Positions 4,507 through 17,901 of a stretch of 64,000 nucleotides of DNA are shown piece after piece. Position 1 is the stretch's first letter, and each line of letters begins with the position of its first letter. The DNA is from Anaerorhabdus furcosa (GTDB taxonomy: Bacteria; Bacillota_I; Bacilli_A; Erysipelotrichales; Erysipelotrichaceae). The notes beneath the pieces are model-generated. The model was not told the DNA's origin. It did not search any database and saw only the letters and a list, made by a program, of their open reading frames with translations. The stretch covers positions 62,001 to 126,000 of the forward strand of contig NZ_FUWY01000003.1 of NCBI RefSeq assembly GCF_900167375.1. The letters are read 5' to 3'. A program made the position numbers and the translations under genes.

Positions 4507-5577
4507 CTAAATATAAGTCATAAATAATTGTATTAAAATCGGCATAATACCAATTGCATAAACTAATCTTGCTACTTGAATAATTGAAGTTTTTTTCATA
4601 TCTGCACCTAAGTCACCTGCAATCAGTGCCATATCACTTACTCCAGCTGGGCTTGATGCAAATAATGCCGATTTAAAATCTAAGTATTTTATCCTATTGC
4701 AGATTTTTCCATATAGATAATTAACCACTAAATAACTAAGTAGCAAGAAAACCGCTGGTAATATTAATTCCTTTAAACCTAAAATTGTATCTCTTGTAAC
4801 TGAGCATCCTACCAATGAACCAGCACATATTTGCGCAGCTATTCTTACTTTATTTGGCATGTATGTTTGTGTTGTTGTTGAATTAAATATCGCAACTAAT
4901 GTCATTGAACATACTAAGACGCCTGATGGAAAATTTGTTAAGAATCCAATTATTCCAGCTAATAAAGTAATTAATAACGTAAATACTAATTTTTCATTTT
5001 TTGATTTTATAAATTTTGCTAGAAATTGATTTAATCTACCATTAAGATTTACTTCTGAATCAGTACAGTTAACTGTATTAATTTTTTCATCATCTTTTCT
5101 TGTTATCCATTGAATCCATGATGGAAAAAACAACAAGGTACCAACTAATCTTACTAGTTGAAGTAAGGCAACTATAGATGCATCAGCATTCATATCTAAA
5201 CTAATAAGTGCCATATCTGTTACTCCACCCGAAACACAAGAAAGTAGGGCTGTTACTAAATCTACCTTACTTATCATTGCAATTCCAATGCCTACTACAA
5301 ATGTATTTACAGTTAACATTAATACCAACAAGATTATCGGCTTTATTAGTTTTTTAATTTGCATCAAATCTTCTTTATATACTTGTACCCCTATAAATGC
5401 ACCCGATATTGCTTGTGTAATCAGTTTTATTTCCACTGGTAAGTAGGCATTACCAATACATACATTGAATATTCCTACAGCAATCATACTTCCAACCATT
5501 CCAGGAGCAGGTGTTTTTAATTTCTTTGCAACGACATATCCAAAGTATCCTACAAGAATTGTTAAAAGTATCTCCAT
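4507..5577 (-). CDS. AbrB-family integral membrane protein (duplicated)
   Basis: A 356-residue, strongly hydrophobic protein with about ten membrane segments. Two halves repeat the same pattern: a GxMVGSM / GVLVCSM segment, then an AQxxxGxxxG segment, then DMALIxxDxxAD followed by QxxRL. This is the AbrB duplication family (E. coli YbgN type; not the Bacillus AbrB DNA-binding protein). The biochemical role is poorly known and transport is suspected. It is embedded between the NagA-like and IIA genes, so a link to the sugar or to a by-product such as acetate is an inference. Confidence 0.8.
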   Translation of the reverse strand: MEILLTILVGYFGYVVAKKLKTPAPGMVGSMIAVGIFNVCIGNAYLPVEIKLITQAISGAFIGVQVYKEDLMQIKKLIKPIILLVLMLTVNTFVVGIGIAMISKVDLVTALLSCVSGGVTDMALISLDMNADASIVALLQLVRLVGTLLFFPSWIQWITRKDDEKINTVNCTDSEVNLNGRLNQFLAKFIKSKNEKLVFTLLITLLAGIIGFLTNFPSGVLVCSMTLVAIFNSTTTQTYMPNKVRIAAQICAGSLVGCSVTRDTILGLKELILPAVFLLLSYLVVNYLYGKICNRIKYLDFKSALFASSPAGVSDMALIAGDLGADMKKTSIIQVARLVYAIGIMPILIQLFMTYI

Positions 5578-5593
5578 CTTTTAATTACCTTAA

Positions 5594-6784
5594 TTACAAT
5601 TCAGCTATTTTTTTCTTCATTGCTTCATGATTATAGAAATCTTCTTTTTTATTGATTGCAGAATCAAATCCGATTTTTCCTTGAATATATGTCCTTAATA
5701 CCTCATAGTCATGATTAATAATCACAATATCAGCTTCTTTTCCGATTGTTAGCGAACCTGTGTTTTGATTTATTCCCAAAAATTTAGCTGGATTTAATGA
5801 TGCCATTTTGACAATTTCTTCAAATGGAACTTTTACTATTTTTTCTAATTTTTCCATATTAGATAACACCCATTTCCCACTTCCACAAATTCTTCCATCT
5901 GAGTTTAAAATCAATCCCTTTTCATCTGAAAACATCTCGCGATCATATCGGATATATCTTCCCGTAGGTAATCCTGCCATGAAATTTGAATCTGATATCA
6001 AACAAAACTTATCATATGGTTGACACTTAAACATCAATTGCATCATTTCACTACATACATGATTCAAGTCTGCTATGAGCTCATATTGAATATTATTTTC
6101 TAATAACAATGCTCCTAAAGCTCCTACATCTCTGTGATGTATACCCTGCATTCCATTTCCTAAGTGTGTAGCAATATCTAACTTAACTTTTCTTTCAGCA
6201 TCATGAATTTGTTGTGATTTAGCTTTCGTATGACAACACGCTACTTTTATATTTTCACTATGTAAATATTTAATGACATCATATGCATTTTCAAGTTCTG
6301 GTGCTATCGCCATCATTTTCAAAGATCCGTTGGCTAACTCAACTAGACGCTTTGTTTCTTCTAAGCTAGGGGTTGGCCAAGTCATCCCAATTGTATTTTC
6401 TCCACCTCTTGCCCAAAAGGGTCCCTCACTATGGATTCCATGGATTCGTGCTCCTTCATAATCGCTTTGCATCACATCATGTATTGCCACAAATGCTTCT
6501 TCTTTAGCAGTTGGTAATACGCCTGTAACACCCACTGTAGCTAATGATTTACAAAATCCAATAATGTCTTCTTTGTTTGCAGGATCAGTCATTGACCACC
6601 CACCAAAGCCATGATTATGAATATCGATTATTCCTGGAATAACACGATATTTTGAATAATCAATTATTTCTCCTACAGGTACTTCTTCAGTAATATCTAT
6701 AATTTTATTATCTTCAAATATGATATACCCGTTTAAAACTCCACCTTCTGTGTATATTTCATTTGATTTAATTATTGTCCTCAT
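5594..6784 (-). CDS. NagA-like N-acetylhexosamine-6-phosphate deacetylase
   Basis: A 396-residue amidohydrolase. The metal and catalytic set is complete: DIHNHG (His56, His58), GIHSEGPF (Glu120), His185, THLGNGM (His207) and LISDSN (Asp265). The order and spacing match NagA/AgaA, which hydrolyse GlcNAc-6-P or GalNAc-6-P to the amine and acetate after PTS import. It sits between the IID and AbrB-type genes in the operon. Whether the substrate is the gluco or galacto epimer is unknown; the separate AgaS-like gene at 18693-19856 would favour galacto. Confidence 0.85.
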   Translation of the reverse strand: MRTIIKSNEIYTEGGVLNGYIIFEDNKIIDITEEVPVGEIIDYSKYRVIPGIIDIHNHGFGGWSMTDPANKEDIIGFCKSLATVGVTGVLPTAKEEAFVAIHDVMQSDYEGARIHGIHSEGPFWARGGENTIGMTWPTPSLEETKRLVELANGSLKMMAIAPELENAYDVIKYLHSENIKVACCHTKAKSQQIHDAERKVKLDIATHLGNGMQGIHHRDVGALGALLLENNIQYELIADLNHVCSEMMQLMFKCQPYDKFCLISDSNFMAGLPTGRYIRYDREMFSDEKGLILNSDGRICGSGKWVLSNMEKLEKIVKVPFEEIVKMASLNPAKFLGINQNTGSLTIGKEADIVIINHDYEVLRTYIQGKIGFDSAINKKEDFYNHEAMKKKIAEL

Positions 6785-6838
6785 AACGTTCCTTTCTATT
6801 AAGGTTAAAGAGGTCTTTTCAAACCTCTTTATTTAAAT

Positions 6839-7654
6839 TTAGAAAATTCCAAAGAATGCTAATGCAATTGTAATAATAAGTATTCCAAATACTAATGTAA
6901 TTGGTTTTACTCCTTTTTTAATTAATTTAACAAGTACAAAGATAAGTCCAATTGATAATATACCTGGCATAATAGAATTTACTACATCTAAAACAACTAC
7001 AGATGTTTCACCCACATTAATTGTCCATGCTAAGTTAACATTAACCATTGTAGCAACCATTGCACCTACCATTGTTAATCCAACAATTCCTGCTGCTTTA
7101 GTTAATGGTTCCATTAATCCAGATTCAAAAACGGAATCAATGAATGTTGTTCCAAATGTATATCCTGCTCTTAACAAATACCATCTAGCGATAATTTGTG
7201 AGAATCCGTAAATAAGAATAAACATAACCACACCAAGTATATTCCCTTGAGAACAAAAGCCTATACCTATACCTGCTGCTATAATACGCAAACAGTTAAA
7301 GAAGAATGCATCCCCAATTCCTGCAGTTGGTCCCATTAAAGCTGCCTTAATGCTTTCGATTGTATCATCATCAACTGAATTTTTTGTTTTCTTTTCTTTT
7401 TCAAGAGCGTATGTGATTCCTGCAATTAGCGCAAACATAACAGCATGTGTGTTGAAGAAACCATTATGTCTTTTTAAAGCTGCTTTACGTTCATCCTCAT
7501 TTGTATAAAGTTCCTCCAAAACTGGAGCCATAGTTAGTGCAAAAGCATTACCTTCCATTTTAACCATATTAAATCCTGCAAATACATATCCTGAATTCCA
7601 AAACATTTTTCTTAAAGTTTTTTTCTCTTGATTTGAGTATTCTATTTTAGCCAT
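6839..7654 (-). CDS. PTS mannose-family EIID
   Basis: A 271-residue membrane component of the mannose/sorbose PTS channel. The N-terminal part (MFWNSGYVFAGFNMVKMEG) and the GPTAGIGDAFF segment are family hallmarks. The C-terminus has several hydrophobic segments. Its start overlaps the IIC stop by one base, indicating coupled translation. Together with IIC it forms the sugar translocator. Confidence 0.94.
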   Translation of the reverse strand: MAKIEYSNQEKKTLRKMFWNSGYVFAGFNMVKMEGNAFALTMAPVLEELYTNEDERKAALKRHNGFFNTHAVMFALIAGITYALEKEKKTKNSVDDDTIESIKAALMGPTAGIGDAFFFNCLRIIAAGIGIGFCSQGNILGVVMFILIYGFSQIIARWYLLRAGYTFGTTFIDSVFESGLMEPLTKAAGIVGLTMVGAMVATMVNVNLAWTINVGETSVVVLDVVNSIMPGILSIGLIFVLVKLIKKGVKPITLVFGILIITIALAFFGIF

Positions 7655-14284: not shown

Positions 14285-14953
14285 TTAGGATAATTTTGTT
14301 ATATCAACGTTATATATCAATACATCATCGTCTACAGTTATATCCATATCAATTTCATTTGTATCTAATTGGATATGATTATCTTTTGATTGTATATTCT
14401 CATACTTTGACAGACTTTTTACAATTTTATCAAAACATGTTGATACTTCTTCATTAGAACCTTTTGCCATAATTTCTATATGAACATTATGTGTCATACT
14501 TTCATTTAATGAATAACTAAATTTAATTTCAGTATTTAGTTGATCAATCGAACTCAAAATCATTTCTTTCTCTGGAAAATCAGGAATCATAGCTTCGATT
14601 TTTTCTTTACTCATTGGTTGTATGCATGAAATCGAATTTTCATTATCATAGACAATATTTTGACAAGTAGAAGATTCTCCTAGATTAGCCAATAAACCCT
14701 TATCTTTATCCGAAACAGATAACTTATTCATGTCATTTTCATGACTATCATATTCATATGTATATTGATTTGAAACTAGATTTTCTTGAATTAATCCTCT
14801 TATATCTTCATTGTCATCAAGCAATTCAGAATAACGCACTATCAATTCATGATTATCATATTCATTAAACTCCATTTTTTTCTTTTCTTTTGAACATCCA
14901 GCTAACATTAAAACTGCTAAAGTAGCAACAATTAATTTCTTAGTATGTTTCAT
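14285..14953 (-). CDS. Lipoprotein of unknown function in the agrD transcript
   Basis: Read from the ATG at 14953, this is a 222-residue lipoprotein. The signal peptide MKHTKKLIVATLAVLMLAGC has a LAGC lipobox. The mature part is acidic with no motif I recognise; two Cys (TCQNIV and SCIQPM) could pair. An upstream in-frame ATG at 14986 would add 11 residues before the signal, which is less plausible. Neither ATG has a good ribosome site; the nearest strong one (GGAGG at 15019-15023) serves an ATT codon instead. It lies 117 bases downstream of the agrD-like gene on the same strand, so it may be quorum-regulated. Confidence 0.75.
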   Translation of the reverse strand: MKHTKKLIVATLAVLMLAGCSKEKKKMEFNEYDNHELIVRYSELLDDNEDIRGLIQENLVSNQYTYEYDSHENDMNKLSVSDKDKGLLANLGESSTCQNIVYDNENSISCIQPMSKEKIEAMIPDFPEKEMILSSIDQLNTEIKFSYSLNESMTHNVHIEIMAKGSNEEVSTCFDKIVKSLSKYENIQSKDNHIQLDTNEIDMDITVDDDVLIYNVDITKLS

Positions 14954-15070
14954 ATGTATACGTATAAAGAAATCTTCTATACTCATTTACTTTGTTTTGA
15001 GCAGTTGTAATTTCTCTTCCTCCTTTTTTTAAAAAATTTAAGTAAAGCAATTCAAATTTAATCATGAAAA

Positions 15071-15199
15071 TTATATTTTCATTGCTTTTTTCTTTAATTC
15101 CCGACAGTCACTTTGATAAATATTAGATCTTGAAGTTGACAATAAACTTGATTTTGCGATTCTAATAATCTGTGTTATCAACAAATCTAAAATTTTCAT
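15071..15199 (-). CDS. agrD: AgrD-like cyclic (thio)lactone autoinducer precursor, 42 aa
   Basis: A 42-codon gene with a strong ribosome site (GGGAGG, 9 bases before the ATG). The N-terminal 16 residues (MKILDLLITQIIRIAK) form an amphipathic helix. The middle reads SSLLSTSRSNIYQ and the C-terminus is charged (SDCRELKKKAMKI). This is the three-part layout of AgrD: membrane helix, autoinducer, and tail cleaved by AgrB. By analogy with precursors ending their signal before YQP or YEP, the ring would be S23-R-S-N-I27, a lactone via Ser. Cys32 is an alternative ring residue but lies in the tail. It is encoded divergently from agrB, which is unusual. Confidence 0.72.
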   Translation of the reverse strand: MKILDLLITQIIRIAKSSLLSTSRSNIYQSDCRELKKKAMKI

Positions 15200-15224
15200 T
15201 TTCTTGTACCTCCCTATTAATAAA

Positions 15225-15307
15225 ACTATATTTCATTTCCATCTTTACTTCAATGTGATTGTGATATTCATAGTTAAATCTGTGATATTTTAAATATCAC
15301 AGATTTA
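15225..15307 (-). promoter_or_regulatory. agrD promoter with LytTR-like direct repeats and a 14-bp dyad
   Basis: On the minus strand a -35 TTGAAG (15248-15253) and -10 TATAGT (15225-15230) are 17 bp apart. Directly upstream, AATATCACA occurs twice in the same orientation (15260-15268 and 15281-15289), 21 bp apart and ending 6 bp from the -35. This spacing is that of AgrA-type LytTR binding repeats. The distal copy is also one arm of a perfect 14-bp inverted repeat (15275-15288 with 15294-15307, 5-base spacer). The site can also serve the rightward agrB promoter (weak -35 at 15329, -10 TATTAT at 15352-15357). Confidence 0.7.
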
Positions 15308-15377
15308 CACAACTTTATCACGATGGACTATTCTCATCACTTAAAATATTCTATTATATTTCAAAGAGGTTTTTATT

Positions 15378-15926
15378 ATGAAAAAATTAATAGAAAAAAG
15401 ATTAAATTATGACGAAGACTTGATAGCTATTTTCCTTCACGGTATAAATATCATATTTTATGATGGTTTGGGATTTTTATCCGTTTTAATTCTAGCATTT
15501 CTTTTCAATAAACTTTTAATTGGAATACTGTATATTATAATTTTTAGCAACCTAAGAATTCATGCAGGTGGTTTTCATGCTTCAACAAAATTAGGTTGTT
15601 TTGCTTTATATAATTTGTTATTCATAAGTTTTATACTTACACTCAATTCACCGCTATTAAATCCAATTATCAACATACCTTTAACGATGATTGCTACTCT
15701 GATAATTTTCAAATACGCACCAGTGGAGCATATTTATGCTCCACTAACAATCATCGAAAAATATAGAAACAAAGATAAAATACGGTTTTCTTTGTTATTT
15801 CTATTGATTTTATATATAATTTCAGTAGGAATAAATTTTGAATATTTCAAAGTAATAAGCATCACACTTATTTATACTTCTATGCTAATGATTTTACATA
15901 TGAATTCAAAATATTACAAAGGATAA
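15378..15926 (+). CDS. agrB: AgrB-family membrane peptidase processing the autoinducer
   Basis: A 182-residue multi-pass membrane protein. The AgrB signature is present: RIHAGGFHASTKLGC, with catalytic His67 and Cys74 seven residues apart as in staphylococcal AgrB. The APVEHIYAPL segment (about residues 115-124) is also conserved. It cuts the AgrD tail and closes the ring. It is first in agrB-agrA-agrC, with a 6-base gap to the regulator gene. Confidence 0.93.
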   Translation: MKKLIEKRLNYDEDLIAIFLHGINIIFYDGLGFLSVLILAFLFNKLLIGILYIIIFSNLRIHAGGFHASTKLGCFALYNLLFISFILTLNSPLLNPIINIPLTMIATLIIFKYAPVEHIYAPLTIIEKYRNKDKIRFSLLFLLILYIISVGINFEYFKVISITLIYTSMLMILHMNSKYYKG

Positions 15927-15932
15927 TACAAA

Positions 15933-16640
15933 ATGAACATAAAAACAATCATTATTGATGATAACCTATCAGATATTAATTCTTTGACGATGAACTTAGA
16001 TGCCTATTCTAATGACTCATCAGTTAATTTTGATTATGTTTCTTTCTCTGATATACAATATGAAGAATTATTAGAGACAAATGGATTGCTATATATTTTA
16101 GATATTGACATGCCTTCAATAAATGGATTTGAATTAGCTGAAAAAATTAAAAGAAATAATCCTAGAGCTATTATTATTTTTTGTTCACAACATGCCAATC
16201 TTGTTTTTGAATCTTTGCGACTAGAAACAAGTTTCTTTATAAGAAAAAGTAATTTAATAGATGATTTTAATCACGCAATAGAAAAATGCATAACTATCTT
16301 AAATGACAAGTATACAGAATATTCATACAACAGTAATGGCCTACTCAAAACAATTTATTATTATGATATTGAATACTTTGAAGTTAATCTTAATGACTTA
16401 TATATACATCTTTCAAATGGCGAAAAACTTAAAGAAAGAAAAACAATGAAAAAAGTTATTTCTGATATTAATAATGATAATTTTATTCAAACTCACTATT
16501 CTTTCTATATAAATGCTTCTCATATTGAATCTATCAATGAAAATGCAGTTGTATTAAAATCCAAAGTGGAATTACCTATTACAAAATCAAGATATTCCTT
16601 AGCAAAAAAAGAATTTTTGCAATATCTTGCAAGAAGGTGA
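15933..16640 (+). CDS. agrA: AgrA-like response regulator with LytTR domain
   Basis: A 235-residue regulator. The receiver domain has the acidic pair DD (residues 9-10), the phospho-Asp57 in ILDIDMPSINGFE and a conserved Lys (FFIRKS). The C-terminal LytTR domain begins near residue 135 (YYYDIEYFEVNLNDLYIH) and includes FIQTHYSFYINASHIESI. It binds direct repeats near activated promoters; the 21-bp repeats upstream of the agrD-like gene are candidates. The gene order B-A-C differs from the staphylococcal B-D-C-A. Confidence 0.92.
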   Translation: MNIKTIIIDDNLSDINSLTMNLDAYSNDSSVNFDYVSFSDIQYEELLETNGLLYILDIDMPSINGFELAEKIKRNNPRAIIIFCSQHANLVFESLRLETSFFIRKSNLIDDFNHAIEKCITILNDKYTEYSYNSNGLLKTIYYYDIEYFEVNLNDLYIHLSNGEKLKERKTMKKVISDINNDNFIQTHYSFYINASHIESINENAVVLKSKVELPITKSRYSLAKKEFLQYLARR

Positions 16641-16644
16641 TTTT

Positions 16645-17901
16645 ATGTCTTATTTTGATATATTACTTAATTTTATTGAATCCTCTATATTACTTTTCCT
16701 TATAACCTCATTAGTTAATCGAAAAGATACAAATATATTCATACCAGCTTCTATCTATTTATTTTGTAGTACAACACTTATAACTGCGATTAATCAATAT
16801 CAGAGATTTGAAAGTTATCTGTTCATTTTCGATCTTGTCCTAATTGTTATATATCTTAAGATAATATCAAAAGATTCAATATTCAAAATATTAGCACTTG
16901 GTACCTATTCAACGCTACTTATCGCTAGCATTTATTCAACACTATTAATAACTGTTAGTATATTAACATTGGGTCGCTTTGATTATGTAGAGTTAATGCT
17001 AAACAACAAAATAGTGCTAAGTATTCTAGCCGAATCTTTATTTTTATTGTTTTCTTATCTATCTATCAAATTTTTTAACTCATTTAAAGATACTCTTTCA
17101 AATATTGAATATATTTATCTCTTTATTTTATTCATCTCAATACGCTTAATATTTGTAACTTTTGAAACCTTATTAGCTTCCAATCTCATCAATGATGTTA
17201 ATACAATATTGTCTATCTTTAGTTTAGTTCTATTTGTACTTCTTACATGTACATTGTTTTATCGCATTAGTATCTATCGTAGTAATCTTCTTAAGAGCGA
17301 ATTTGACAAGCAACTACTCAATAATCAGATAGCTTTATCAAAGAAGATTCAAAATTCACAGACTGAACTTTTATCTATACGACACGATTTAAAGCATATT
17401 CTCGCACTGATGTCTCGAAAAGATATTGATTCTATTAATGATCCACTCCTTACATCTCTTGTACAAAAATATACAGATCAGATTAATGATATTTTTATTC
17501 CTTTCGAAACTTCTAACTCTATTCTAAATAATGTTTTAAATATCAAATATTTTGAAGCATTCAGCAGAAACATTGATATTGTATGTAACATCAATGTTTC
17601 TAAAAAAATACATATCGGTGATGATGACTTGTTTCTTCTGCTTTCAAATCTTTTGGATAACGCTATCACTCATATTGGTAAAGATAAAAAAATATATGTA
17701 GATATCAACTATACTTCAGCATTAAAAATCAAAATATCAAATTCCATTGATAAAGAGGACATCATCAATCAACCTTCTATCCAGCAAAGCGAATACCATG
17801 GTTTTGGAATCCAAACAATTAAGAATATCACTAATAAATATAAAGGTGATTGTCTTTTTGAAGTTAGAAATAAGATGTTTAATGCTATCATTATCATTTG
17901 A
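16645..17901 (+). CDS. agrC: AgrC-like peptide-sensing histidine kinase
   Basis: A 418-residue kinase with about six N-terminal membrane segments (residues 1-205), a coiled-coil linker, and a GHKL-type HPK10 kinase core. The H box is SIRHDLKHIL, the N box LLSNLLDNAITHI and the G box HGFGIQTIKNI. It reads the cyclic peptide outside the cell and phosphorylates the AgrA-like regulator. The ATG at 16645 has an AGAAGG site; an in-frame TTG at 16627 overlapping the agrA end is less likely. Confidence 0.92.
   Translation: MSYFDILLNFIESSILLFLITSLVNRKDTNIFIPASIYLFCSTTLITAINQYQRFESYLFIFDLVLIVIYLKIISKDSIFKILALGTYSTLLIASIYSTLLITVSILTLGRFDYVELMLNNKIVLSILAESLFLLFSYLSIKFFNSFKDTLSNIEYIYLFILFISIRLIFVTFETLLASNLINDVNTILSIFSLVLFVLLTCTLFYRISIYRSNLLKSEFDKQLLNNQIALSKKIQNSQTELLSIRHDLKHILALMSRKDIDSINDPLLTSLVQKYTDQINDIFIPFETSNSILNNVLNIKYFEAFSRNIDIVCNINVSKKIHIGDDDLFLLLSNLLDNAITHIGKDKKIYVDINYTSALKIKISNSIDKEDIINQPSIQQSEYHGFGIQTIKNITNKYKGDCLFEVRNKMFNAIIII

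Follow-up and report, generated by a model that had tools for sequence, protein, structure and literature searches.

A predicted agrD divergent from agrB in an apparently complete agr quorum-sensing locus of Anaerorhabdus furcosa

Which gene supplies the signal for the agr-like gene set in the window, by which we mean the whole 64,000-nucleotide stretch of DNA analysed here? The set comprises three genes on the forward strand. agrB (15378..15926, +) encodes an AgrB peptidase (PF04647, E=2.3e-26) with an intact His67/Cys74 dyad in an H-x6-C motif. It is followed by genes encoding an AgrA-like LytTR response regulator (15933..16640, +; PF04397, E=2.9e-11; PF00072, E=5.4e-9), with Asp59 in a DIDMP motif, and an AgrC-like GHKL histidine kinase (16645..17901, +; PF14501, E=6.6e-12), with an RHDLKH motif and N and G boxes. 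Adjoining agrB, 178 nt away and divergent from it, is an ORF of 42 codons with an ATG start (15071-15199, −), the product of which is MKILDLLITQIIRIAKSSLLSTSRSNIYQSDCRELKKKAMKI. agrD usually, if not strictly, shares the strand of agrB; this ORF lies on the opposite strand, as the preliminary description had stated, and the arrangement recurs in related genomes. We propose that it is very probably agrD, the 42-residue signal precursor of a complete agr quorum-sensing locus in which the signal gene is divergent from agrB-agrA-agrC.

Curated models do not recognise this ORF. Pfam and NCBIfam scans, TIGR04223 included, gave no family match, and the TIGR04223 alignment suggested in the preliminary description returned nothing for the ORF at E<=10 (the curated cut-off is 19 bits). 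Profile A5 was built from divergent agrB-adjacent precursors with the window left out; the window ORF is its top match in its own genome (E=2.6e-11). A profile made from the genome's four other AgrDs gave a weak, suggestive match only (E=0.14). Homology of 15071-15199 (−) to AgrD precursors is well supported by these comparisons and by the alignment of its relatives (alignment A4). The Shine-Dalgarno sequence AGGGAGGT (15208..15215, −) lies 8 nt 5' of the ATG, bearing out the strong ribosome site reported earlier. The helix of the product seems at most weakly amphipathic, its Eisenberg moment being 0.46 against 0.24 in shuffled sequences, with 93 of 2000 shuffles equally high.

To find relatives, about 60 AgrB loci were fetched, most of them belonging to the same taxonomic family and a few to the order. 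The surroundings of agrB were scanned for small ORFs preceded by a ribosome site, and further members were collected with a looser motif. Divergent ORFs are found upstream of agrB in these relatives, for example that of locus L105, ending in IRIAVNSLPGPSRSGFYQNDMRELKKKLSQAKR, compared with IRIAKSSLLSTSRSNIYQSDCRELKKKAMKI in the window. The subfamily consensus is SLxxTSxxGNYQxDVRxLKK, and Ser23, Gln29, Asp31, Arg33, Leu35 and Lys36 are invariant in alignment A4. Of 273 genomes in the taxonomic family, profile A4 detected the subfamily in 22, spread over five genera, with one weak further match in the order. In a phylum-wide sample it matched 2 of 392 genomes, both from the same family, and no member outside the family was found in that sample. 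A related-locus search of genome contigs returned only two distant Lachnospiraceae AgrBs. pN/pS pooled over nine close pairs of the subfamily, the window copy not among them, is 0.17; the subfamily coding sequence is under purifying selection. When TIGR04223 was run against seven divergent members, only the L135 peptide came near (E=0.0035, below the cut-off).

All core members with agrB within 300 nt lie upstream of it on the opposite strand, at 19 distinct loci including the window. At L098 and L103, a large gene separates agrD from agrB, agrD being 2.1 kb upstream. The matches that lie downstream on the same strand (L096, L197 and some weaker) are members of another subfamily, characterised by MYQEKMPEAVKxLKK. 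One clade of 20 rows (95/92) in the AgrB tree contains 11 rows, the window's among them, from the 12 first labelled divergent, and four of its rows labelled 'other' (L089, L101, L129 and L113) proved divergent on re-inspection. L114, whose sole divergent ORF is truncated, was labelled divergent for this tree. The divergent rows are not cleanly monophyletic: the tree requires seven changes.

Downstream of agrD is a lipoprotein gene (14285..14953, −; LPAM_1 lipobox, E=0.00079), which is probably on the agrD transcript, given that many relatives share the gene order. A Pfam scan revealed no domain beyond the lipobox, no homologue was present in the fetched loci, and the fold model is poor (pLDDT 51). 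A 41-residue ORF (14940-15065, −) starts 5 nt past the agrD stop and overlaps the start of the lipoprotein gene, whose ATG has no ribosome site of its own; an unused GGAGG occurs at about 15018. Translational coupling is a possibility here. In many relatives, agrD is likewise followed by a gene for a secreted protein, a lipoprotein or both. The secreted protein 3' of the divergent agrD in L101 (749-1738, −) matches PF16425 (DUF5022, E=1.5e-24), and that in L126 (5776-6438, +) has weak metallopeptidase matches (Peptidase_M10, E=0.00026, under the cut-off).

Five loci encode an in-frame fusion of an AgrD segment to a protein with a signal peptide or lipobox: L113 (898-1713, −), L129 (1535-1918, +), L185 (6765-7532, +), L184 (4479-5228, −) and L191 (4365-5051, −). 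A Pfam scan of the L113, L185 and L184 fusions gave no convincing domain. A tentative reading, which we consider rather less than an even chance, is that the divergent arm is a signal and effector unit, with AgrD co-translated with, and sometimes fused to, a secreted protein or lipoprotein, and AgrB releasing both from one polyprotein. If true, polyprotein release would couple output to signal one-to-one.

The same gene order admits a different interpretation, in which the divergent peptide would chiefly serve the adjacent secreted proteins and lipoproteins, as a secretion leader or an antimicrobial, signalling being secondary. Such genes lie 3' of agrD in many loci and are fused to it in several relatives, and a copy on contig C3 of the same genome (described below) keeps agrD, secreted protein and lipoprotein genes with no agrB nearby. 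However, a complete AgrB/AgrA/AgrC set adjoins the window agrD and the ring and cleavage motif is conserved, which makes this interpretation unlikely. Still less probable is a chance open frame, with the agrB-regulator-kinase set using a peptide encoded elsewhere. The ORF is indeed short and A+T-rich, and no curated model detects it, but its first rank in the genome in the leave-window-out search, the strong Shine-Dalgarno sequence at 8 nt, the placement conserved across genera and the low pN/pS of the subfamily all speak against chance. We regard a chance ORF as ruled out by the leave-window-out search and the conserved position, and the 42-codon agrD-like gene of the preliminary description as real.

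A peptide encoded elsewhere was also sought directly. The genome, 2.4 Mb in size, has five AgrB matches, and its contig C7 is the one that carries the window. In the other AgrD-like ORFs of this genome, a Ser stands five residues before [YHF]-[QEK]-P: SSRGL-YQP on C2, SASNM-HQP on C5, SKYRA-YEP at the end of C5 and SAFGW-YQP on C10. The corresponding window stretch is SRSNI-YQS. The C10 ORF is the sole TIGR04223 match above the cut-off, on another contig and near another agrB. A conventional agrD serving the window agrB, the possibility raised against the gene at the outset, was searched for in the genome with profiles and TIGR04223 and was not found; the other AgrDs all sit in other agr loci. 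Contig C3 holds a second agrD of the divergent subfamily (profile A5, E=5.3e-8). There (L176, G000:C3:215000-228000; 5438-7472), agrD is followed by genes for a secreted protein and a lipoprotein and is divergent from a kinase fragment, and no agrB was found within the 13-kb stretch fetched.

A frameshift or stops divide the C2-locus agrB (L040, 9426-10045) into two frames; the regulator, kinase and agrD-like ORF there remain open. The C10 locus (L039, 4095-8030) has, opposite in strand to agrB and about 6 kb off, the canonical TIGR04223 agrD, an ABC transporter, a probable radical SAM protein and a small peptide with the ending AVCCCG. At two contig ends (G000:C5:175690-176160 and G000:C1:24845-24961) the sequence lies inside an agr cassette; the agrD ORFs of the two are similar, and this is probably a repeated cassette broken by assembly.

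The predicted signal core of the window AgrD is a five-residue lactone, S23-R-S-N-I27, followed by Y28-Q29 (15119..15133, −). Ser23 lies five residues before the predicted cut site, with Tyr28 at the cut. Ser occupies the ring position in 34 of 34 distinct sequences, a count based on a motif that itself requires Ser, and no member with Cys at this position occurs in alignment A4 or the hit list. The earlier proposal of Ser instead of Cys at this position thus holds, the lactone itself being a prediction. The window peptide does carry a Cys, Cys32, at a column where most subfamily members have Val; ring closure by this residue was ruled out, as the column lies in the tail. Position 28 is Tyr or Phe in 33 of the 34 sequences, and the residue before it is Asn in 14. 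Ring size is unsure because this frequent Asn would be unusual as a ring C-terminus. Together with the nearly fixed aromatic residue, it gives some room to a six-residue ring, SRSNIY, with cleavage before Gln29, and rings of that size do exist, as in C. acetobutylicum (PMC12312760). Against this, the majority of known AIPs have five-residue rings (PMC4916163), and the C. thermocellum AIP was established by LC-MS/MS as a Ser pentapeptide lactone that closes at Phe29, just before Tyr30 at the cut site (PMC5322536). We put the six-residue ring at about one chance in four. On the C. thermocellum precedent the SRSNI lactone is preferred, and by this analogy it is probably the product of AgrB. A Ser-lactone signal as such is not new, precedents being those of C. 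thermocellum and S. pseudintermedius and GBAP (PMC5322536, PMC12312760).

The 178-nt gap between agrD and agrB contains four 9-bp boxes arranged as two mirrored 21-bp tandem pairs. Putative regulator boxes 1 (15260..15268, +) and 2 (15281..15289, +; 21 nt after box 1) both read TGTGATATT, as does the mirrored box 3 (15293..15301, −); box 4, CGTGATAAA (15314..15322, −), is mirrored and lies 21 nt from box 3. The score of the four-box pattern is 24/27, a value seen in none of 2000 shuffles and in one of 718 window tiles, the site itself; this count is no independent test of the boxes because the window had been inspected before the pattern was defined. Recurrence in relatives is independent: L106 and L110 have the same four-box layout with different box sequences, and L109, L126 and L128 have tandem pairs. 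Clear four-box symmetry is present in only 3 of the 11 intergenic regions examined. The boxes resemble LytTR sites and are putatively recognised at both promoters; P2 and P3 of S. aureus are each preceded by tandem repeats to which AgrA binds (PMC4227749).

A hexamer scan pointed to two candidate promoters, whose putative −35 hexamers are 6 and 8 nt away from the proximal boxes. The candidate agrD promoter, TTGAAG-N17-TATAGT (15253-15225, −), adjoins the boxes and matches the sigma-70 consensus at 9 of 12 positions, and the candidate agrB-operon promoter is TTCTCA-18-TATATT (15331..15360, +), with a score no better than chance. The scan of the region gave 11 matches against 11.3 in shuffles, no excess over chance. 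Since the sigma-70 match count equals that of shuffles, the agrD promoter call rests on position and not on score: the promoter announced in the preliminary description is suitably placed, and its score does not set it apart. That description also placed the signal precursor and the processing and sensing genes on separate transcripts. This is part of the picture only: the mirrored putative boxes probably control both promoters jointly.

A circuit can be proposed on this basis (in outline, as predicted from sequence). AgrB would cut AgrD before Tyr28 and join Ser23 to Ile27, yielding the SRSNI lactone (alternatively SRSNIY). The exported cyclic peptide would bind the GHKL kinase, and the phosphorylated LytTR regulator would occupy the mirrored boxes and fire both promoters. 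One arm would raise AgrB, AgrA and AgrC, and the other AgrD and the lipoprotein. Such a circuit would resemble S. aureus P2/P3, save that the signal gene would travel on the P3-like arm with the output gene.

The S. aureus system shares AgrB, AgrD, AgrC and AgrA with the window locus, as well as divergent promoters that each have upstream regulator tandem repeats (PMC4227749). There, however, the P2 operon comprises agrD as well as agrB, agrC and agrA, and the ring is closed by Cys, whereas in the window the opposite arm carries agrD, the predicted ring closes with Ser, and the place of RNAIII is taken by the lipoprotein gene. The C. thermocellum AgrD Clo1313_2818 (PMC5322536) resembles the predicted window peptide in its Ser-closed pentapeptide lactone, the Tyr directly after the ring and a conserved tail. 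The tail contains Pro in Clo1313_2818 and is QxDxRxLK in the window type, and no agr operon adjoins Clo1313_2818, whereas the window has a full divergent locus. TIGR04223 AgrDs resemble the predicted window precursor in small size, ring, charged tail and an adjacent AgrB; their leader is hydrophobic or amphipathic, to which the window helix may correspond. The same-strand AgrDs of the same family (NSPSxxGMYQEKMPEAVKxLKK) share Ser at the ring position and YQ at the predicted cut site; they lie directly downstream of agrB and have a Met-Pro-Glu tail, in contrast to the divergent window type.

No description of a divergent agrD or of AgrD-secreted-protein fusions was found in the open-access papers searched, a limited library. 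The divergent placement, missed by Pfam and NCBIfam, and the agrD fusions to secreted proteins and lipoproteins look new. Because this precursor and most relatives tested escape the curated models, agr loci of the divergent type can look signal-less in annotation. With the motif TSxxGxYQxDVRxLKK, divergent from agrB, their signals become predictable and synthesisable. A signal gene on the output arm would make a circuit unlike the textbook one of S. aureus, and the AgrD fusions raise the testable idea that signal and effector are linked.
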